The position numbers were made by a program, and so were the translations under genes. From contig CANGNB010000004.1 in NCBI GenBank assembly GCA_947454545.1, positions 1 through 35,232 on the forward strand: a DNA stretch of 35,232 bases, in the 5' to 3' direction. Source of the DNA: Oligoflexaceae bacterium. GTDB lineage: Bacteria > Bdellovibrionota_B > Oligoflexia > Oligoflexales > Oligoflexaceae. Below the pieces are notes generated by a model. That model was not told the origin of the DNA, made no database searches, and worked only from the letters and a program-made list of their open reading frames with translations. Below, one piece after another: positions 13,650 through 26,480 of the stretch; position 1 is the stretch's first letter; the number at the start of each line of letters is the position of its first letter.

Positions 13650-14867
13650 TTAGCTGAGGTAAGCATACTGAGGCAATCGCCCGGACTCCACTGAGCTCTT
13701 GGTCTTGTCTTCGCTCGGGGGCAATGCCTCGAGAAAGGCTCTTTGCAAATCTGCCAGGAGATCGTGAACATGTTCCAAACCTACCGAGAGTCGAATCAGC
13801 CCATCACTTATGCCTGCTTTTTGACGGTCAGCCTTATCGTAGCTTGCATGCGACATCGATGCCGGTTGTTCGATCAGGGATTCGACGGCGCCGACGCTCA
13901 CAGCTCTTTGAAAAAGTTGAGTCGAGGCGACAAAGCGCTGGGTCGCCTGATAGTCGGCAGCAAGTTCAAAGCTAACGACCGCTCCAAAGGAGCCGCGTAA
14001 TTGGCGTTGTGCAAGTTCGTGTTGGGGGTGAGAGGCGAGGCCAGGGTAGAAAACTTTGCGGACTAGGGGGTGGTGGCTTAGGTACTGCGCGATCCAAAGA
14101 GCGCTTTTACACTGCTCCCGAAACCGCAGTTCGAGGGTCTTAATCCCCCGCGTACAGAGAAAACAGTCAAAGGGAGCCATCACTGCGCCGGTGGCGTTTT
14201 GAATGAAATAGAGTTCTTTTAAGAGTTCGGGATCTCTGACCACCAGAGCGCCGCCCAAGAGATCGCTATGCCCACCTAAAAACTTGGTGGCCGAATGCAT
14301 GACGATATCAGCACCCAAAGTTAAGGGTTGGGTTGCCACGGGAGTGCCAAAGGTGTTGTCGATGGCCAGCAGGGCCCCCTGTTCATGGGCGATATTGGCT
14401 AGGGCTTCGATGTCTACAAGGCTGAGCAAGGGATTGCCAGGATTTTCGGCCCAGATCATCTTGGTGTTGGGGCGGATGGCGGCGCGCACGGCTGCTTCAT
14501 CATCGAGGCGCACGAGTGTGGTTTCAATGCCAGCACGATTCAAAATCTTATGCAGGATGCGATAGGTGCCGCCGTAAATATCTGTGCCCGCGAGAATATG
14601 GTCCCCGGAACGCAAGAGCTGGGTAGCACAGTGGATCGCAGCCATACCCGAGGAAAAGGCTAGGGCTCCACAGCCCTCTTCGAGAGTCGCGAGCGTCGTC
14701 TCGAGAGCAGCACGCGTGGGATTGCCGCTGCGCGAATAGTCGTAGACGGCTTTGGAAAAATCGCCATCAGGGGCAAAGGTTGAGGACAGATGCAGCGGGG
14801 GAATCACCGCGCCAGTGATCGGTTCTTTTTCATTGCCTACATGGATCGAGCGTGTGGAAAAATGCAT
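13650..14867 (-). CDS. Cys/Met metabolism PLP-dependent enzyme (cystathionine gamma-synthase/lyase type)
   Basis: STRSIHVG, YSRSGNPTR, SSGMAAI, SATKFLGGHSD. Confidence 0.9.
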   Translation of the reverse strand: MHFSTRSIHVGNEKEPITGAVIPPLHLSSTFAPDGDFSKAVYDYSRSGNPTRAALETTLATLEEGCGALAFSSGMAAIHCATQLLRSGDHILAGTDIYGGTYRILHKILNRAGIETTLVRLDDEAAVRAAIRPNTKMIWAENPGNPLLSLVDIEALANIAHEQGALLAIDNTFGTPVATQPLTLGADIVMHSATKFLGGHSDLLGGALVVRDPELLKELYFIQNATGAVMAPFDCFLCTRGIKTLELRFREQCKSALWIAQYLSHHPLVRKVFYPGLASHPQHELAQRQLRGSFGAVVSFELAADYQATQRFVASTQLFQRAVSVGAVESLIEQPASMSHASYDKADRQKAGISDGLIRLSVGLEHVHDLLADLQRAFLEALPPSEDKTKSSVESGRLPQYAYLS

Positions 14868-14915
14868 GGGCTGTGCTCCCTCAGTGTGTTACGGACCAGG
14901 AAAAGCTTAGATAGG

Positions 14916-16094
14916 TTACAGAACGTCCAAGGCTTGCTTCACATCGGCAATGAGATCCTCGGTATCTTCGATGCCAAGCGCCAAGCGCACGAGGGCATCG
15001 TCGATACCCCAACGCTCACGATCGGCTTTGCTCGCTCTATAAAAACTCATGAGATAAGGCTGTTCGATCAAGGTTTCGACACCGCCGAGGCTAGGACCAA
15101 TCTTAGGGATGTGCACGGCATCAATAAAGCGGCTGCAGCCGTGACGATCGGTCTTCAGCTCAAAGCTGATCAGGCCGCCGCCTCCTTTGAGGAGCTTGCG
15201 GGCCAAGTGATAGCTCGGATGGGTTTCGAGGCCTGGGTAATACACGCGGGCCACTTTCGGATGCTGGGCTAAAAACTGCGCCACGGCAAGACCCGACTTA
15301 TTCTGTTGCGCTACGCGCAGGGGCAAAGTTTTGAGGCCACGCTGCAAAAGATAAGCTGTGTGCGGGGCCGCGACGGCTCCTATGATGCCTTGCAAGGTAC
15401 GGATGCTCGCGAGATCTTCCGTACGGCCGCAGAGGACCCCGGCGAGCAGATCGTTATGCCCCCCGAGGTATTTGGTCGCTGAGTGCACGATAAAATCTAT
15501 ACCCCAGCGACTCGGTTGGATGTTGATGGGACTTGCTAAGGTGGTGTCTACGCAGGTCGCTATGCCTTTTCTTTTGCCAAGAGCGGCCAGAGCTTCGATA
15601 TCGATCACATCGAGATGGGGATTGGTTGGGAGTTCGGTGAAGATCAGTTTAGTCCTTGCATCGCAGGCTGCTTCAAGCGCCTGGAAATCACCGGTGGCAA
15701 TCGCCTTGCAGCGCACTCCAAATTGCTCGAGATACTCGTAACAAAACTGCCGCGTGCGATGATAGCAGCGATCGAAGAAAAGCAGCTGATCCCCAGGACG
15801 CAGACGATTGAGAAAAAGCAGCGTGAGGGCTGACATACCTGTGGTGCAAAGGATAGCGTCTTCGGTCGCCTCTAGGGCAGCAAGCTTTTTCTCGACGGTA
15901 CGACTGTTAGGATTACTATAGCGAGCATACTCGTCGCGTTCTTCGCCATTCTCTAGCATCGAGATGATGGCGGCAGAATTGGCAAAGGTAAAAGTGGAGG
16001 AGCAATGAATTGGATCGACTATTCCGTAATCGCTTTTGACACGGGCTTCGCCCGCGTGTACGGCCAGGGTTTGAAGAGAGGCATCGTGAGACAT
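14916..16094 (-). CDS. Cys/Met metabolism PLP-dependent enzyme, second paralogue
   Basis: TLAVHAGEARVKSDYGIVDPIHCSSTF, YSNPNSRTVE, SATKYLGGHNDLLAG; start at 16094 behind AAGGAA. Confidence 0.9.
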   Translation of the reverse strand: MSHDASLQTLAVHAGEARVKSDYGIVDPIHCSSTFTFANSAAIISMLENGEERDEYARYSNPNSRTVEKKLAALEATEDAILCTTGMSALTLLFLNRLRPGDQLLFFDRCYHRTRQFCYEYLEQFGVRCKAIATGDFQALEAACDARTKLIFTELPTNPHLDVIDIEALAALGKRKGIATCVDTTLASPINIQPSRWGIDFIVHSATKYLGGHNDLLAGVLCGRTEDLASIRTLQGIIGAVAAPHTAYLLQRGLKTLPLRVAQQNKSGLAVAQFLAQHPKVARVYYPGLETHPSYHLARKLLKGGGGLISFELKTDRHGCSRFIDAVHIPKIGPSLGGVETLIEQPYLMSFYRASKADRERWGIDDALVRLALGIEDTEDLIADVKQALDVL

Positions 16095-16205
16095 AGACTG
16101 GTATTCCTTCATAGGGCGCACCCTTCCCGTGGCAGCAAAAAGACTGCAAAGAGTGCGAAAGCTTCGCGCTGATAAACTGGGGAGTGAGGCAGCAGGGCTG
16201 CGCTG

Positions 16206-16233
16206 AAAAAAAAAGCCACGCACAAGGCGTGGC
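16206..16233 (-). terminator. intrinsic terminator in the leader of the PLP enzyme gene
   Basis: GCCACGC/GCGTGGC perfect 7-bp stem with T9 on the minus strand. Confidence 0.85.
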
Positions 16234-16251
16234 TGAGATCTTTTCAGTTCA

Positions 16252-16301
16252 CATCTTGAAATTCCCAAGTAAGTTCGGAGGCTTACTTTTCGTCCAAGAT
16301 G
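16252..16301 (-). promoter_or_regulatory. candidate structured leader element
   Basis: Outer stem CATCTTG/CAAGATG (16252-16258/16295-16301) enclosing AAGTAAG/CTTACTT (16267-16273/16282-16288), upstream of the terminator at 16206-16233. Confidence 0.4.
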
Positions 16302-17596: not shown

Positions 17597-18541
17597 TCAG
17601 GCATCTTCAAAAAGCCACGTCGACAGATAACGTTCACCTGTGCTTGCGATAATAGCCACAATCTGCTTGCCCTTGTTCTCAGGCCGCGAGGCGATCTGTA
17701 TCGCTGCTGCGATAGCTGCACCAGAGGAAATCCCGCAGAGGATGCCTTCTTCTTTCGCTGCTCGACGGGCCCATTGGCCAGCCTCTTCATTGCTCACCTT
17801 GATGATTTCATCAATGAGCTGAAGATCGACGATGTCGGGAATAAAGCCCGCGCCTATACCTTGAATCTTATGGGGGCCCGGTGCGCCTCCGGATAGGACT
17901 GGGGAATCCTTGGGTTCGACAGCGATAGCTTTGAAGCTCGGCTTTTTCTTTTTGAGAACGCTGCTCACACCCGTGATGGTGCCACCCGTACCCACTCCAG
18001 CAACCAAAAAATCAACCTTGCCATCGGTATCTTCCCAGATCTCAAGAGCTGTCGTCTTCTGATGGATCTCGACGTTGGCCATATTTTTAAACTGCTGGAG
18101 CATAAAGTAGCTTGGATTTTCTGCCGTGAGCTCTTCAGCACGCGCGATAGCGCCCTTCATCCCTTTTTCACCTGGTGTGAGGACTATGTCTGCGCCTAGG
18201 GCTTTGAGCATCTTGCGGCGCTCTATGCTCATGGTCTCGGGCATCGTGAGGATCAGTTTGTAACCCTTTTGAGCTGCGACAAAAGCCAGGCCTATACCCG
18301 TATTACCACTGGTTGGTTCGATCAGGGTCGAACCAGGCTTCAGTTCGCCAGCCGCCTCTGCCGCCTCTATCATGGCAGCGCCGATCCTGTCCTTGACGCT
18401 TGAAAGGGGATTAAAAAATTCAAGCTTAAGTAAAATCTCGCCATGCAGACCAGCATTGAGTTTTGGGATGCGAACCAAGGGTGTGTTGCCGATAGTTTCC
18501 AGAATATTTGCGGCTATTTTAGGTCGATGACGCCTTTCCAT
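17597..18541 (-). CDS. cysK: cysteine synthase
   Basis: [50 protein letters not shown]. Confidence 0.97.
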
Positions 18542-18585: not shown

Positions 18586-19398
18586 CTAGATCCCGCCACC
18601 ATCACGAAAGAGGTGAGAGACAAATTGCTGCTGGGTGATGCGACTTTTACTAGGGACACTTTCGGTGAGCCAGACATTACCTCCGATGATGCTCCCTTCG
18701 CCAATCATGATGCGGCCCAGTATCGTCGCGCCTGAGTACACGGTGACCTGATCGCCGAGAATAGGGTGTCGCGCTTCGCCCTTGATCACCATGCCCTCTT
18801 GATCGCGATGAAAGCGCTTGGCACCCAGAGTCACACCCTGATAGAGAGTGACGCGATTGCCAATGATGGCCGTCTCACCAATCACTGTTCCAGTGCCGTG
18901 ATCGATGAAAAAATGCGATCCAATCTGGGCACCCGGATGGATGTCGATACCCGTCTCCTGATGAGCCCTCTCGGCAATCATGCGTGGTAGCAGCGGCCAG
19001 TGTAAGCGGTAGAAAATATGCGCGATACGATGCGCGGACACAGCTTTAAATCCCGGGTAACAAAACATCACCTCCACCGGATCGGAGGTGGCCGGATCAT
19101 CGAGTAAGGCGGCCTCGATATCCGATCGAAACAGTGGCCCCAGCGTGCTCAGCTGAGCCAGAACAGGCTCAAGACTGAGGCTCTGAACAGCTTCGCTATG
19201 CTGATAGGTTTCTTGCAGGCAACTCAGCAGCTTTTGGACAACAGGGGCTAAGCTCTGCTCAAAGCTCCGCTTTTCATGATCGAGAACGAGGGCTGCGACG
19301 GTCAAACGAACAAGACGTTCGATCTGCTCGTGAAAGGTGCAGAGCAGCCCATGTTCGATGGAAGTCCTTTGGAGTGTCTGTTCCCAGGTCTGTGGCAT
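18586..19398 (-). CDS. cysE: serine O-acetyltransferase
   Basis: Hexapeptide repeats: TGIDIHPGAQIGSHFFIDHGTGTVIGETAIIGNRVTLYQGVTLG. Confidence 0.95.
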   Translation of the reverse strand: MPQTWEQTLQRTSIEHGLLCTFHEQIERLVRLTVAALVLDHEKRSFEQSLAPVVQKLLSCLQETYQHSEAVQSLSLEPVLAQLSTLGPLFRSDIEAALLDDPATSDPVEVMFCYPGFKAVSAHRIAHIFYRLHWPLLPRMIAERAHQETGIDIHPGAQIGSHFFIDHGTGTVIGETAIIGNRVTLYQGVTLGAKRFHRDQEGMVIKGEARHPILGDQVTVYSGATILGRIMIGEGSIIGGNVWLTESVPSKSRITQQQFVSHLFRDGGGI

Positions 19399-19533: not shown

Positions 19534-21039
19534 TCAGATGCCAAGCCCATGTTCAAAGGTGCCGAGTCCCCGCTGGATCAAACGTTTTTGTAGGCTTTCG
19601 CTGAGAGGATCTTGTTCAAGATGCACATGCCAGCCAAGTTCCCACAGACTTTCTATGATCTTGAGGGAGGCATCCGCAGTATTGTTCTGCAAAAAATTCC
19701 GAGGAATTTGCAGGATGCGTTCGCCTTCGATCTCCGAAGGCTCGACAAAGTGATCGACAAGCCTCAGGCTGCCGACAGCAGAAGAACGATGGTTTTGGCC
19801 GTCAATATCCTTGATGATCCCTGCAGCGACTGTTCGAAAGCTCCGAGGATCGATCAAGATGAAAGCTCCCGCGTACTTATCGTCAGCAAAGGTATCAATG
19901 GCCAGGAGTCGAGAGCTCTCAATTTTGACCCGAGCGACATCATTGACCTGCAGCTGTGTGGAGGGCACCGGAGCCAGTTGCTCTAAATCAAAGCGATAGG
20001 CGATCTGAACTATTTGGGCTCGGGTCGTTTGCGAGCCAAGGCGCAAGAGATAGCGTTCGTCGAGGCGCTGAGCTTCCTCGTCGAACCATACGAGCTCAGC
20101 GTTAAATGCCTGAGCTGTCTTGGGCTGCTGTCCCTCAGCTAAGATGAGGCTGCCGCGTTCCAGATCACGTTCATCGTCCAAACTCACCGCGATGGCATCT
20201 CCAGCTTGAGCCTGGTTTGCGTTTTGGCCGTGGACCCAGAGCGAACGAATGTGGCTTTTCTGCTGCGACGGCCAAAGCGTGACCTCATCGCCAAGCTTTA
20301 GGGGGCCTGAACGCAGGGTTCCGCTTGCCAGACGCTGTCCCGATCGATCCCGCAGGATCAATTGCACGGGAAGATAAGGACTTTGTGTGGAGAGTGCCGT
20401 CGAAGGCAGGGTCTCCAAGAGCTCGAGCAGAGAGGGCCCCTTATACCAAGGGGTAGCCGAACTTTTAGAACTCACATTGTCCCCGAGCAGAGCACTGAGC
20501 GGCAGACTGTGGAGAGACTGGGCCCCATGAACCCATGCCAGGCGCCGAAAGTCGCGATCTATGGCTTCAATCCGTTCTTGATCGTAGTCGATTGCATCGA
20601 TTTTATTGATGGCCAAGATCACATGTGGGACGCCTAGCTGAGCGATCAGATAGGAGTGGCGCCGTGTTTGTTCGATGACACCCTGGCGAGCATCGACTAG
20701 GATGATGGCGACATCGGCGCGTGAGGCGGCCGTTACCATGTTGCGCGTATACTGGACATGACCTGGGGCATCAGCAAGGATAAATTTACGCTTTGTACTC
20801 GCAAAGTATTTATAAGCGACATCGATGGTGATACCTTGCTCGCGCTCGGATTTGAGGCCGTCGGTGAGCAGGGATAGATCGGGTTGCCCCTGGATCAGGC
20901 GAGCCTTTTGCAAGGCTTCCCACTGATCATCGAGGACAGCCCGACTCTCATAGAGGAGGCGACCTATTAAAGTCGACTTGCCATCATCGACGCTACCAGC
21001 CGTGGTGATGCGGAGGACCTGTTGGGTTAAGGAGCTCAT
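19534..21039 (-). CDS. cysN: sulfate adenylyltransferase subunit 1 (GTPase)
   Basis: GSVDDGKSTLIGRLLY, DAPGHVQYTRNM, NKID. Confidence 0.96.
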   Translation of the reverse strand: MSSLTQQVLRITTAGSVDDGKSTLIGRLLYESRAVLDDQWEALQKARLIQGQPDLSLLTDGLKSEREQGITIDVAYKYFASTKRKFILADAPGHVQYTRNMVTAASRADVAIILVDARQGVIEQTRRHSYLIAQLGVPHVILAINKIDAIDYDQERIEAIDRDFRRLAWVHGAQSLHSLPLSALLGDNVSSKSSATPWYKGPSLLELLETLPSTALSTQSPYLPVQLILRDRSGQRLASGTLRSGPLKLGDEVTLWPSQQKSHIRSLWVHGQNANQAQAGDAIAVSLDDERDLERGSLILAEGQQPKTAQAFNAELVWFDEEAQRLDERYLLRLGSQTTRAQIVQIAYRFDLEQLAPVPSTQLQVNDVARVKIESSRLLAIDTFADDKYAGAFILIDPRSFRTVAAGIIKDIDGQNHRSSAVGSLRLVDHFVEPSEIEGERILQIPRNFLQNNTADASLKIIESLWELGWHVHLEQDPLSESLQKRLIQRGLGTFEHGLGI

Positions 21040-21950
21040 CAGAAGTAACCCTCTCTTTTCTTGAGTTCCATGGAAGCATCTTGATCGTGATCAATGGCTC
21101 GAGTTGCACGTTCTGAGCTGCGAATTGTGAACAGCTCTTCAATGATGGCATCGATGTCCTGAGCCTGCGAACGCATCGCGCCTGTGCAGGGGCTGCAGCC
21201 TAGAGTGCGAAAGCGACTCCAGACTTTCTTCGCATCAGGATCCTGTCGGCGCGGATCGTCCTCGTCGAGAGGGATGAGATTTTTGCCTTTATCGAGGACC
21301 CAGCGTTCTGCTGCATAGTAGAGTGGAACGATAGGAATAGCCTCGCGGCGGATATAGTGCCAGATATCATACTCGGTCCAATTAGAGAGCGGAAAGACTC
21401 GCATGTTTTCACCGGGATGCACTTTGCTGTTGTAGAGAGTCCAGAGCTCTGGCCTTTGATTTTTCGGATCCCATTGGCCATGCTGATCACGAAAGGAAAA
21501 AATACGCTCTTTAGCACGTGAGCGCTCCTCGTCGCGTCGAGCTCCTCCTAAGGCTGCGTCGACCTGATAGAGCCGCAGGACCTGGAGCAAGCTTTCGGTT
21601 TTGAGCAGGGCACAGCAAGCGCTGGTGCCGAGAGCAAAGGGATTTGTCCCTTTGGCGATAGCCGGCTCGTTGCGATGGACGATGAGCTCGAGCCCGAGAT
21701 CGCGAGCCACCTGATCCCTAAAGCTATACATCTCCTTGAACTTAAAGCCGGTATCTACATGGATAAGAGGGAAGGGTATTTTTCCCGGTAAAAACGCTTT
21801 TTTTGCGAGATGCAGCAGCACCGATGAGTCTTTGCCGACCGAATAGAGGATAGCAGGACGCTCAAAGCTGGCAGCAACTTCACGCAGGATTTCGATACTC
21901 TCGGCCTCCAATTCGTGCAAGTAACGCTCGTCATGGGGATGGATAGGCAT
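21039..21950 (-). CDS. cysD: sulfate adenylyltransferase subunit 2
   Basis: [52 protein letters not shown]. Confidence 0.96.
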
Positions 21951-22689
21951 GGGTCGTCTCCTTTCGGGCATGAGTGTGAAGGCCGCACTCTTTGTGTTGA
22001 TCTCGTTCCCACCACCAGCGTCCTGCGCGCACATCTTCGCCTGCTTCTATAGCGCGTGTGCAAGGCGCGCAGCCTATGCTGGGATAGCCTCGATCATGGA
22101 GGGGGTTGTAAGGAAGCTGATGCGTATGCACATAGTCCCAAATCTGTTCGAGGCTCCAGTGAGCAAGTGGATTGAGCTTCCAACGTCCACTGCTCTCTTT
22201 TTCCGCGAGCTCTAGTGTGGAGCGAGCCTGTGATTGCTCGCGGCGTAGACCGGTCAACCAAGCTCCATGAGGACTCAGGGCACGGGTCAGGGGTTCGATC
22301 TTGCGAATCTCACAGCAGTGCTTGCGAAGTTCAAGGCTCTGGTAAAAAGCATTGGGCCCCTCCCTACTGACAAAGTCCTCAAGGGCTGCTGCATCAGGTG
22401 AAACCATGCGAAAGGCTATAGAAAATCGCAGGCGCCAGAGCTCAATGAGATCGTAGGTCTCTGCAGGCAAGCGCCCTGTATCAAGGACAAAGCTCTGGAT
22501 GCGATCCTTATAAGGCAAGGCCATATGCTGGAGCACTAGATCTTCAAGACCAAAGCTATTGGCCAAAGCTAAGGATCCAGGAAATAGCGTGACGGCACGA
22601 GCGACGATGTCCTCAGCACGAGGCGCCAGAGCTCCTTGGGCCAGCTGCTCGAGCCACCGAAGAGCGTCGAAGGAAAGGTCTTCGCTCAT
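21931..22689 (-). CDS. cysH: phosphoadenylyl/adenylyl-sulfate reductase, APS-reductase type (4Fe-4S)
   Basis: KHCCEIRK...CAPCTR and C-terminal KECGLH. Confidence 0.93.
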
Positions 22690-24347
22690 AGAGCTGCTCC
22701 TAAACGTTCCAAACCATAGCGCAAGGCAAAGTCACCCAGGCGCTCCTCATTGGGGCTTTCTTGGACCCAAAGAGCTGTAAGTTTTTCAAAGAGTTCCGAG
22801 AGCTGATCGATCTTGACCTTATCTTTGATTTTTTGAGCGAGGCGGCGGCCTTCGGCATCGCCTCCGATGTAAAGGGCATAATGCCCAGGGAGTTGCCCAA
22901 CTAAGCCGATTTCGGCGCTATAGGGTCGCGCACAACCATTAGGGCAGCCCGTGATGCGAATCACCGGAGCGCGTTCATTCGCCTGATGACGATCGAGGCT
23001 TTCCTGAAACCAGCCAAAAATCTGCGGGCCAGCGCGCTCAGCTTCAGCGAGGGCCTTGGTACAGGTGGGCAGGGCCACACAGGTGAGAGCCCTATCGTAG
23101 AGCTTTTGGGGACTGTGTGGGCTGAGTCCTCGAGCATCCAAAAGGCTTTCGATCGCTTTTTGATCCTCAGGCCGAATCCCAAGCAAAATCAGATCCTGAT
23201 CGGCGGTGACCTGGACTGAGAGCTGGTAAGTTGCAATCAGATCGCGCAGTGTGCTTTTGAGGGGGCGCTTTTCGGTGTCGATGAGGCGTCCAGAAAGGGT
23301 ATGAAAGCCGAGCGAAAGACTGCCATTGCGATGCTGGGACCAACCGAGATAGGAAGGCGTCTTCCATTCGGGGAGCGGTCGTTGCTCAAAGCGGATGCCC
23401 GCTCGCTCTTCGACTTCGCCCTGAAACCAAGCAACCCCCTTTTTGTCGAGCAGATACTTGAGTCGCGCAAATGTACGATTTTCTCGATTTCCGTAGTCTC
23501 TCTGGGTCGTCACAACCGCTTCGGTCACGGCGATCAGGGATGCCGCAGGAATCCAACCCAGAGCGTCGGCCAAGCGCGGGTGAGTCTCGGCATCGCTGTG
23601 CGACATGCCCATACCCCCACCGACAAAGACGAAGTAGCCCTCAAGCTGATCGTTGGCATCGAAGCTTGCAGCTAAAGAAAGATCTTGCGTGTAAAGATCG
23701 ATCGAGTTGTCGCCGACGGCTGTGATACCAATCTTGAATTTGCGAGGAAGATAGGCCTGCCCGTAGATGCGATCGATTTTCTCTTCGACAACAGGTTCTC
23801 CATCCAAAAAGATTTCAAAGTAGGCATTCGTATCAGCTTCAAAATGCTTGGAAATGAGATCCGCAGGGGCATCAAGTTGAGCAAGGCGCGGATCGCCCCA
23901 AGGATTCACAGCCTGTGCCACATTGCGAACGACATCACCGCAAGCTCCAACGGTGGAACTCAGCGCCGTATGGATATCTTGAATAGCGGCTTTAAGATTG
24001 CTTTTAAGCACCCCATGAAGCTGGACGCTTTGTCGGGTGGTGAGACGCAGGCCGCTGCTCGCATAGCGATCGGCTATCGTGTCCCAGGCTAGCCATTGTG
24101 CGGCCGTCAGGCGACCGCCGGGAATACGCCCACGCACCATGAGAGTAAAGGGTTTGGGGCCCTCGGGATCACCAGGCTTTCTGCGATCGCGATCCTTTTG
24201 CTGGTAGGCTCCCCAAAATTTGAGCAGGTGCTCACCATTGATGCTGAACTTGGGGGAGTCGCTCTGCAGTTCTTCGGCGAGCGTGCCGCGGAGGCCATGG
24301 GATTCTTCTTTCAAGAGTTCGATTTTAGTTTTTTCGGTAAGGCTCAT
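22686..24347 (-). CDS. cysI: nitrite/sulfite reductase haemoprotein
   Basis: LTTRQSVQLHGV, GACGDVVRNV, CVALPTCTKALAEAER, ITGCPNGCARPYSAEIGLVG. Confidence 0.93.
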   Translation of the reverse strand: MSLTEKTKIELLKEESHGLRGTLAEELQSDSPKFSINGEHLLKFWGAYQQKDRDRRKPGDPEGPKPFTLMVRGRIPGGRLTAAQWLAWDTIADRYASSGLRLTTRQSVQLHGVLKSNLKAAIQDIHTALSSTVGACGDVVRNVAQAVNPWGDPRLAQLDAPADLISKHFEADTNAYFEIFLDGEPVVEEKIDRIYGQAYLPRKFKIGITAVGDNSIDLYTQDLSLAASFDANDQLEGYFVFVGGGMGMSHSDAETHPRLADALGWIPAASLIAVTEAVVTTQRDYGNRENRTFARLKYLLDKKGVAWFQGEVEERAGIRFEQRPLPEWKTPSYLGWSQHRNGSLSLGFHTLSGRLIDTEKRPLKSTLRDLIATYQLSVQVTADQDLILLGIRPEDQKAIESLLDARGLSPHSPQKLYDRALTCVALPTCTKALAEAERAGPQIFGWFQESLDRHQANERAPVIRITGCPNGCARPYSAEIGLVGQLPGHYALYIGGDAEGRRLAQKIKDKVKIDQLSELFEKLTALWVQESPNEERLGDFALRYGLERLGAAL

Positions 24348-24949
24348 GTGAGTTCTCCTTTTGGGCGATGAGGTGCACCTTGTTCTATCCAGTGTGTCAG
24401 CTGCTCTCGTAGAGCCTGCATGCGCTGGACCGTATCGGGGATGTGGGTCCGCACAGAACTGCGCAAGCGAACGAGCTGATCAAATTCGGGGGTGATATCC
24501 TGCGGCAAAAACTCTTCGAGCCAGAGTCGAATCGCACGTGCGACTCCAGGGAAAAGACCTTGCGTTGAGATCGCTAGCTGCAAAGGACCGCGATGAAGTT
24601 GAGCGGCAAAGTAAAAATCAGAGGCCTTGGGTTCATCGACGGCATTGATGATGATCCTGGCAGCGCGTGCGGCATCGGCTACGGCCGCATGCGCAAGCGG
24701 CTCATTGACGGCTGAAATTATCAAAAAGACGCCTTCGAGATCAGAGGGCTCCCAAGCTCTTTGTTCCCAACTCGCTCCATAGGATTCTATAAGGCGCAGA
24801 GTATCCGGGTGAAAGTGCTTGGCAATGACGCGAAGCGTGGCGCCCGTCTCAACGAGTTTTTCCAGTTTTTCCAGAGCGACCAGTCCGCCGCCAATGACAA
24901 GGACGGGCTTTTGTTTCAAATCAAAGAAAACGGGTAAGAGTGAACTCAT
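24344..24949 (-). CDS. cysG: precorrin-2 dehydrogenase/sirohydrochlorin ferrochelatase domain protein
   Basis: LLPVFFDLKQKPVLVIGGGLVALEKLEKLVETGATLRVIAK; N-terminal CysG/Met8p type only. Confidence 0.9.
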   Translation of the reverse strand: MSSLLPVFFDLKQKPVLVIGGGLVALEKLEKLVETGATLRVIAKHFHPDTLRLIESYGASWEQRAWEPSDLEGVFLIISAVNEPLAHAAVADAARAARIIINAVDEPKASDFYFAAQLHRGPLQLAISTQGLFPGVARAIRLWLEEFLPQDITPEFDQLVRLRSSVRTHIPDTVQRMQALREQLTHWIEQGAPHRPKGELT

Positions 24950-25706
24950 CAGTCTTGTCCTCCGCATGGGTTTGGTTAAGGGCTGTGCTCTCCATCAGGG
25001 AGACGTTGCTGCCGATATAGATGATGCCTGGGCCTTTGGTTTTCTTTTCAAAGCCTGTTTGCTGCCAAATCCCAAGCTGACTTTTGCTGAGGTGAGTACG
25101 CCCCTCCTCATCCGTCTCTAAGATGGCGATGGGACGCTGACGCTCAGCTCCAAAAGCACGGAGTCGGGCGATGATAGTGGGGAGCTTTTCTATGCCCATA
25201 AAGATGACAAGAGTACCTTGGTAATGAGCGAGTTCGTGCCAGTAGGCTGGGTCATCCGGTAGGTGGTGTCCCTGGATCGCTCGAAATTCGTTGCCATGAC
25301 CGCGAGCGGTGAGGGGAAGGGCCCATTCCGCTGCGATGCCATTCATGGCGCTGATGCCGGGAATAATCTGATAAGCAAGGCCTGCAGCTCGGAGAGCCGC
25401 GACTTCTTCGGCGCCCCGACCAAAGATAAAGGGGTCACCGCCTTTGAGACGAACCACACGTTTGCCCTGCTGACCATAGGCTACCAATAGATCATTGATC
25501 TCATGCTGCTTGAGAGCATGCTGGCCGCAGCGTTTGCCAACATAGACAGTCTTGGCTCGTTTTGGAAAGAGCTTGCGTACATCGCTCGCAAGCAGAGCAT
25601 CGTAGAGTATCACTTCAGCTTTTTGCAGAGCTTTGACGGCGCCTAAAGTCAGAAGATCGACTGAGCCGGGACCAGCTCCGACCAGACTCACAAAACCTTG
25701 CTTCAT
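24921..25706 (-). CDS. cobA: uroporphyrinogen-III C-methyltransferase (SUMT)
   Basis: SLVGAGPGSVDLLTLGAVKAL, VVRLKGGDPFIFGRGAEE, PGISA; SD AGAGGA before ATG 25706. Confidence 0.95.
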   Translation of the reverse strand: MKQGFVSLVGAGPGSVDLLTLGAVKALQKAEVILYDALLASDVRKLFPKRAKTVYVGKRCGQHALKQHEINDLLVAYGQQGKRVVRLKGGDPFIFGRGAEEVAALRAAGLAYQIIPGISAMNGIAAEWALPLTARGHGNEFRAIQGHHLPDDPAYWHELAHYQGTLVIFMGIEKLPTIIARLRAFGAERQRPIAILETDEEGRTHLSKSQLGIWQQTGFEKKTKGPGIIYIGSNVSLMESTALNQTHAEDKTDEFTLTRFL

Positions 25707-25728: not shown

Positions 25729-25800
25729 GTTTTTTGGCCATTGCTTTCGATGCGCGCAAGGTTCCCAAGGCTCTCAGGGCGAAAGCAATGGCCAAAAAAC
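25729..25800 (-). promoter_or_regulatory. perfect 21-bp inverted repeat (30-nt loop) in the leader of the sulfur-assimilation operon
   Basis: GTTTTTTGGCCATTGCTTTCG (25729-25749) and CGAAAGCAATGGCCAAAAAAC (25780-25800) are exact reverse complements. Confidence 0.9.
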
Positions 25801-25930
25801 AACGCGAAGAATGATAGTGTGGCGAAACGAAAACCAAGCGCAAACGCAAGGAATCAAAACTTTCGCAAACTCATTAAATTTTTATAAAAACTAGGGATTT
25901 TTCGTTGCTAACAGATAGCCGGGGAGGCTT

Positions 25931-26041
25931 TTAACAACAACAAAGGCAGGGACAACAGAGGGCAGCGCGAGCAGACACGAGGACGCGAGATGAGTCAGGA
26001 TTTTGTAATCTTTGCGCATAGCGCTGGGGTGTGTTCTGCAT
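25931..26041 (-). CDS. 36-aa Cys-rich leader peptide MQNTPQRYAQRLQNPDSSRVLVSARAALCCPCLCCC
   Basis: SD AGGAGA (26049-26054) 7 nt upstream of ATG; six Cys codons in the last eight; located directly upstream of the sulfur-assimilation operon. Confidence 0.8.
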   Translation of the reverse strand: MQNTPQRYAQRLQNPDSSRVLVSARAALCCPCLCCC

Positions 26042-26081
26042 AAGCTTATCTCCTATGAGCCTTATGTGCTTCTCAAAATCT

Positions 26082-26109
26082 CTTATAAGACCCTGCATGT
26101 CAACAGCAA
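26082..26109 (-). promoter_or_regulatory. candidate sigma70-type promoter of the Cys leader/operon
   Basis: Minus strand TTGCTG - 16 nt - TATAAG, about 40 nt upstream of the leader ATG. Confidence 0.45.
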
Positions 26110-26229
26110 AGGCCACTCTTGCCAGTGACTTCGAGCGGAAGAGGGACCTTGAGGTAGGAATCGTGGCGGGAACGAGGCGGCAAAAGTTGGAGAGTCGAGA
26201 GACTAAGTTTTCAAATTTTAAGCAGAAAA

Positions 26230-26262
26230 AACAAAGCAAGGTCGATCCAAGACCGACCTTGC
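26230..26262 (-). terminator. intrinsic terminator-like hairpin
   Basis: GCAAGGTCG/CGACCTTGC perfect 9-bp stem followed on the minus strand by TTTGTTTTTT. Confidence 0.75.
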
Positions 26263-26480
26263 CTAAATTGAGTGTGCCCCTAAAGGCGTACGCGATCTTG
26301 GGGGAATGGAGGTTCAAAGTCAAGCTACTGATATCATTGGTAACTGGTCGGTGCGAGAGCGCTGCTCAAAGGTGTCTAGGGTAGCCATTCAGAGCGCAAA
26401 TGAGCCCGTTGGCGCTTGCATTGCTAGCAAAAGAGGCGTATGCGGAACTCTGGAATAGACACCTTTCTGGAGGATGTACG

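Follow-up and report, generated by a model that had tools for sequence, protein, structure and literature searches.

What is the role of a short, cysteine-rich open reading frame (ORF) that stands upstream of a sulfur-assimilation operon in an Oligoflexaceae bacterium, and through which step could it act on the operon? We addressed this question in a stretch of 35,232 nucleotides, referred to as the window (contig CANGNB010000004.1, assembly GCA_947454545.1), and in related genomes. An earlier inspection of the window, the sequence-only reading, had proposed a candidate cysteine-responsive translational attenuator. The cysteine-responsive part of this proposal is supported by our results, with Cys tails in seven of seven genomes; the translational part is not, judging from predicted leader masking and base composition.

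The leader ORF and the operon that it precedes

Direct reading of the minus strand placed the leader start at an ATG at 26041 and the TAA stop at 25933-25931. This confirms the previously described 36-codon ORF (26041..25931) with its AGGAGA Shine-Dalgarno (SD) sequence, as well as the terminal codons TGT TGT CCC TGC CTT TGT TGT TGT TAA. The leader peptide ends in ALCCPCLCCC, and six of its last eight codons specify Cys. The features of the leader are as follows.

25931..26041, minus strand: leader peptide ORF, 36 codons, MQNTPQRYAQRLQNPDSSRVLVSARAALCCPCLCCC-stop (direct reading)
25934..25957, minus strand: control codons TGT TGT CCC TGC CTT TGT TGT TGT (direct reading)
26049..26054, minus strand: leader Shine-Dalgarno sequence AGGAGA, 7 nt before the ATG (direct reading)
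26098..26103, minus strand: TTGACA, putative -35-like element, of which TTGAC is kept in relatives
26082..26087, minus strand: TATAAG, possible -10, which pairs with TTGCTG at 26109-26104 at 16 nt (direct reading)

The leader is co-oriented with cobA, the first gene of the operon, and the spacer from the leader stop to the cobA ATG (25706) measures 224 nt. The earlier estimate of about 225 nt was therefore accurate; a second spacer figure of 205 nt given in the same reading was wrong. The matches to NCBIfam families agree with the proposed gene order cobA-cysG-cysI-cysH-cysD-cysN-cysE-cysK on one strand:

24921..25706, minus strand: cobA, uroporphyrinogen-III C-methyltransferase, first gene (TIGR01469)
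24344..24967, minus strand: cysG N-terminal domain protein, precorrin-2 dehydrogenase (TIGR01470)
22686..24347, minus strand: cysI, assimilatory sulfite reductase (NF010029)
21931..22689, minus strand: cysH, APS/PAPS reductase (NF002537, TIGR02055)
21039..22034, minus strand: cysD, sulfate adenylyltransferase small subunit (TIGR02039)
19534..21039, minus strand: cysN, sulfate adenylyltransferase large subunit (TIGR02034)
18586..19398, minus strand: cysE-like serine O-acetyltransferase (NF041874)
17597..18541, minus strand: cysK, cysteine synthase (TIGR01139)

The promoter-like pair TTGCTG-16-TATAAG that had been pointed out upstream of the leader is present in the window. The element that relatives keep, however, is TTGACA at 26103-26098, six bases closer to the leader. 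In each of the six leaders with available upstream sequence, a TTGAC stands 62-75 nt ahead of the start codon. These leaders share no consensus -10, and TATAAG is neither conserved in relatives nor among the results of the consensus scan. SD-like sites precede the leader ATG in six of six readable leaders. We also considered a longer in-frame ORF that begins with TTG (130 codons, 26323..25931) and rejected it as the real start, because a terminator-like hairpin at 26264-26234 falls inside it and because the conserved SD/TTGAC layout belongs to the ATG at 26041 only. This hairpin, on the minus strand and upstream of the leader promoter, is strong (14 pairs followed by a T run) and would shield the operon from transcription that comes from upstream.

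Other sulfur-related genes were seen in the same genome. Downstream of cysK, beyond one unrelated gene, the window encodes two trans-sulfuration-type PLP enzymes of the cystathionine gamma-synthase/lyase family (13650-16268, minus strand). On another contig, a separate sbp-cysT-cysW-cysA operon is followed by a LysR-type regulator gene (locus L221 on G000:C34, 693-5390, minus strand). No Cys leader was found at this separate operon, which suggests that sulfate uptake in this genome is under a second, different control.

Conservation of the Cys tail across the class

The CysI type of the window was found in 7 of 58 sampled genomes of the class, and a phylum-level search returned the same set. 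In all seven, which are related to each other, a Cys-tailed leader heads the operon. The conservation of the Cys codons, on which the original proposal had been made to depend, was thus observed in every genome with this CysI. The tails read ALCCPCLCCC in the window, TLPLCPCCC in G002 (whose leader start is lost at a contig end), SLQCPLCFCCC in G030, LLPCLCCLSCCC in G005, AFSCLCCLSCCC in G006, SSLCLSACLCCCC in G012 and SSVLCACPCCCC in G036. Leader length and N-terminal sequence vary among the seven genomes, while the Cys tail and its position are kept.

The first gene of the operon is cobA in five genomes and sbp, which encodes a sulfate-binding protein, in the other two. In G012 the leader precedes sbp-cysT-cysW-cysA, which is then followed by cobA; the same sbp-cysT-cysW-cysA-cobA order is implied for G036 by two contigs (C370 and C114). 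The distances from leader to sbp are 126 and 143 nt in G012 and G036, and the leader-to-first-gene spacers range from 78 to 268 nt over the seven genomes. Because the leader stands before either cobA or sbp, its position goes with the operon head and not with one particular gene.

Could the translated peptide itself be the active product, for example as a small Cys-rich metal- or redox-binding protein? Cys clusters bind metals in general, which is the point in favor of this explanation. However, only the Cys-rich tail and its position are kept while length and N-terminus drift freely, the Cys tail directly precedes the stop, and none of the genome's 28 other CCC-stop sites is a free-standing copy of the peptide. 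We therefore consider an acting peptide very unlikely. The conservation of the Cys tail in seven of seven genomes with divergent N-termini instead supports the cysteine-responsive reading well. On this sequence evidence, the leader is very probably a ribosome-mediated, cysteine-sensing attenuator of the siroheme, sulfate-assimilation and cysteine operon.

Chance occurrence and other candidate sites

To place the Cys tail against background, we surveyed 10,448 stop codons with eight open codons before them in 199 kb from this genome and its relatives. Six Cys in the last eight codons occurred at only one of these stops, that of the window leader. Five Cys occurred at seven stops, of which four are leaders of relatives and the remaining three come from sites that had been fetched for matching TGY-TGY-TGY-stop. 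Furthermore, when the 617-nt upstream region was dinucleotide-shuffled 5,000 times, the count never reached five Cys. By the survey and the shuffles, the Cys-rich tail is strongly non-random. Short ORFs are common, and one without function could in principle arise by chance; nevertheless, the conservation in seven of seven genomes and the failure of the shuffles to reach the Cys count make this explanation exceedingly improbable.

Inspection of the 28 other TGY-TGY-TGY-TRA sites of the window genome revealed none resembling a leader. One candidate, L188 (WCTCIGCCC), was rejected, as it falls within a long open frame resembling, in another frame, translation initiation factor IF-2. Searches of the leader region against Rfam gave no matches over the gathering score, and the sub-threshold matches, mostly onto a 21-bp hairpin in the spacer, were set aside as chance.

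Tests of terminator and ribosome-site control

How the leader could act on the operon was examined in the region between the leader and the first gene. For the window, G006, G030, G012 and G036, terminator scans of the spacer between the leader and the first gene detected no intrinsic terminator on the operon strand, in line with the earlier remark that no obvious one lies between the leader and cobA; the sole stem in G036 consists of five pairs and is on the opposite strand. A weak terminator-like hairpin is found at the leader stop of G005, where GTTGCTAACCGCAAC is followed by seven T. A stricter scan, the only one to cover G002, gave no terminator for any of the seven leaders. Poor sensitivity does not explain this result, because the stricter scan finds the obvious terminators in the cysI leaders of Chloroflexota.

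These results bear on classical transcription attenuation, in which an intrinsic terminator and an antiterminator would lie downstream of the leader. The same architecture is clear in the Chloroflexota cysI leaders, and the G005 hairpin would be compatible with it; nevertheless, four of the leaders, including that of the window, lack such a terminator, the G036 stem is on the wrong strand, and a scan that recognizes the Chloroflexota cases scored none of the seven. Classical attenuation is therefore very unlikely.

The second alternative is translational attenuation, in which a ribosome stalled at the Cys codons would refold the mRNA and free the ribosome site of cobA or sbp. Such control has been proposed for the mycobacterial polycysteine sORFs, the closest known precedent; the lack of an intrinsic terminator is consistent with it, and the spacers are long enough to allow refolding. 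However, when the leader was masked in folding predictions as by a stalled ribosome, the SD sequence of the first gene showed no consistent gain in exposure among the seven leaders. The predicted accessibility was nearly unchanged or lower, and the largest rise, in G036, was from 0.14 to 0.22. In addition, with cobA or sbp as the first gene, the sequestering partners would need to have evolved afresh. Translational attenuation is thus a possible but rather doubtful output. A full-length rho gene is present in all seven genomes.

RNA features around the leader stop

Three features of the spacer and the leader end are considered here:

25901..25944, minus strand: hairpin between the last Cys codons and post-stop sequence, -13.9 kcal/mol for the local segment
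25891..25990, minus strand: pyrimidine-rich stretch with C in excess of G, candidate Rho-loading (rut) region by base composition
25729..25800, minus strand: perfect 21-bp inverted repeat in the spacer, with arms at 25800-25780 and 25749-25729

A hairpin that joins the Cys codons and stop to post-stop sequence is present in six of seven leaders (five of the six relatives). Its arms are GTTGTTG...CAACAAC in G012, CTGTTGA...TCAACAG in G030 and GTTGCT...AGCAGC in G006, so that the sequence is altered on both arms between genomes. In six leaders the pairing is better than with shuffled downstream sequence (p values from 0.001 to 0.06); in G002 the post-stop hairpin has no support against shuffles. 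The Cys codons of the seven leaders are mostly TGT (25 TGT and 14 TGC), and those of the operon genes favor TGC (8 TGT and 22 TGC). The preference for TGT in the leaders may be due to the hairpin or to slower decoding. By eye, a YTTAAYA-like block is also seen 24-52 nt past the leader stop in all seven genomes, at about 25880-25872 in the window.

From 40 nt before to 40 nt after the stop, the pyrimidine content of the seven leaders is 62-74% and the C/G ratio 1.6-3.0, with C exceeding G in all seven. Each of the seven stop regions falls within the top 1% of same-length windows in the loci of its own genome for pyrimidine content; the C-G excess of the window leader is moderate and is matched by 7% of windows. 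Codons for Cys, Leu, Ser, Phe and Pro are inherently pyrimidine-rich, and Rho sites are not reliably predicted from base composition. At fourfold-degenerate third positions in the last 20 leader codons, 66 of 76 bases are pyrimidines; the corresponding values for the operon genes are 56-73% per gene (Fisher p = 5e-5 against the leaders).

The 21-bp inverted repeat was also considered as a switch and rejected. It occurs as a single copy in the window genome, is absent from G002 and has no U-tract on the operon strand, and for these reasons it is not part of the shared design. The spacer of G002 is 86 nt shorter than that of the window, and the repeat is possibly an inserted palindrome.

Proposed mechanism

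Since the stricter scan found no terminator, SD exposure did not consistently increase upon masking and rho is present, the best reading is a Cys-tRNA sensor in which the stalled ribosome would cover a Rho-loading region. The pyrimidine-rich, C-over-G composition of the Cys/stop region favors Rho-dependent attenuation. By composition and elimination, we give a Rho-dependent output about an even chance of being correct. The joint proposal, a cysteine attenuator with Rho as its leading, as yet unproven output, is likely.

According to this model, a ribosome would initiate at the leader ORF through its SD sequence. Under a shortage of Cys-tRNA, this ribosome would slow or stall at the terminal Cys codons and shield the pyrimidine-rich stretch, which extends from the Cys codons across the stop into the first tens of nucleotides of the spacer, and the operon would be expressed. 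When cysteine is plentiful, the ribosome would finish the leader and depart, leaving the stretch open to Rho, and operon expression would drop. The Cys-codon hairpin may keep RNA polymerase waiting for the ribosome, like the 1:2 hairpin of trp leaders.

More tentatively, the hairpin of Cys codons, stop and post-stop sequence, the pyrimidine-rich stretch and the YTTAAYA-like block might together form a Rho-type module in which the control codons serve as one arm of a pausing hairpin. If this is true, the terminator-free design would be distinct from both the trp type and the mycobacterial translational type.

Comparison with known systems

In the trp/his-type attenuators of Proteobacteria, the leader peptide carries control codons and a hairpin overlaps them. 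Both are seen here, but no terminator/antiterminator pair was found. The tnaC leader of E. coli stalls on free tryptophan through its nascent peptide. The present leader resembles it in the proposed shielding of a Rho site beside the leader stop, and a pyrimidine-rich, C-over-G stretch overlapping and following the stop is present by composition; the signal here would instead be starvation for charged tRNA. The tnaC system has been cited as an analogy for polycysteine leaders (PMC1262725).

In Mycobacterium and Propionibacterium, leader sORFs with Cys runs and no conserved terminator precede cys operons, and Rho was raised as one possibility for such polycysteine leaders in 2005 (PMC1262725). 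According to papers citing Canestrari et al. 2020 (Mol Microbiol 114:93), through which we refer to its findings, the mycobacterial polycysteine leaders are leaderless and cysteine-responsive, and one of these citing papers describes the control as translational (PMC9094748, PMC13236596). The leader described here is like the actinobacterial ones in that a short ORF with a Cys run near its stop lies co-oriented upstream of cysteine/sulfur genes without a conserved terminator. The pattern by which polycysteine leaders are recognized, conserved Cys codons in an otherwise drifting peptide, is found in all seven genomes. In contrast to the leaderless mycobacterial ORFs, as the citing papers describe them, the leaders of the present class with readable starts have SD-like sites of their own (six of six), with TTGAC 62-75 nt upstream. 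They also differ from the actinobacterial leaders in belonging to an unrelated lineage, in heading a cobA-first or sbp-first operon and in the hairpin that joins the Cys codons to post-stop sequence.

In Rhodobacterales, the Cys-codon leader ORF uORFC-8-2 lies upstream of cysS and was proposed as a Cys-tRNA sensor; it has tandem Cys codons at positions 14-15 and a U-tract terminator (PMC8632094). The present leader does not belong to this family, as its target is a cobA-cys operon and it has no terminator.

In scans of the region 0-300 nt upstream of cysI, we also observed Cys-cluster leaders with textbook intrinsic terminators directly preceding cysI at nine loci, mainly of Chloroflexota (L067, L069, L070, L072, L073, L075, L094, L115 and L240). 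The first four carry two leader-plus-terminator modules in tandem, and one of the nine is from a MAG with the label Bacteroidetes; its CysI and one from Chloroflexota share 75% identity. These are probably classical cysteine attenuators. They share with the present leader the signal amino acid and the kind of target gene, but have internal Cys clusters and intrinsic terminators where the present leader has terminal Cys codons and no terminator.

In the literature searched, no paper on such leaders in the lineage of the window was found. This kind of leader is known from elsewhere, and here it has some features of its own. This extends cysteine-sensing leaders, best known in Actinobacteria, to environmental bacteria of an unrelated lineage, in a terminator-free design whose Cys tail persists although different genes open the operon. 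Together with the Chloroflexota cases, one sensor seems to be linked to different outputs, so that the action of terminator-free Cys leaders becomes testable by comparison.
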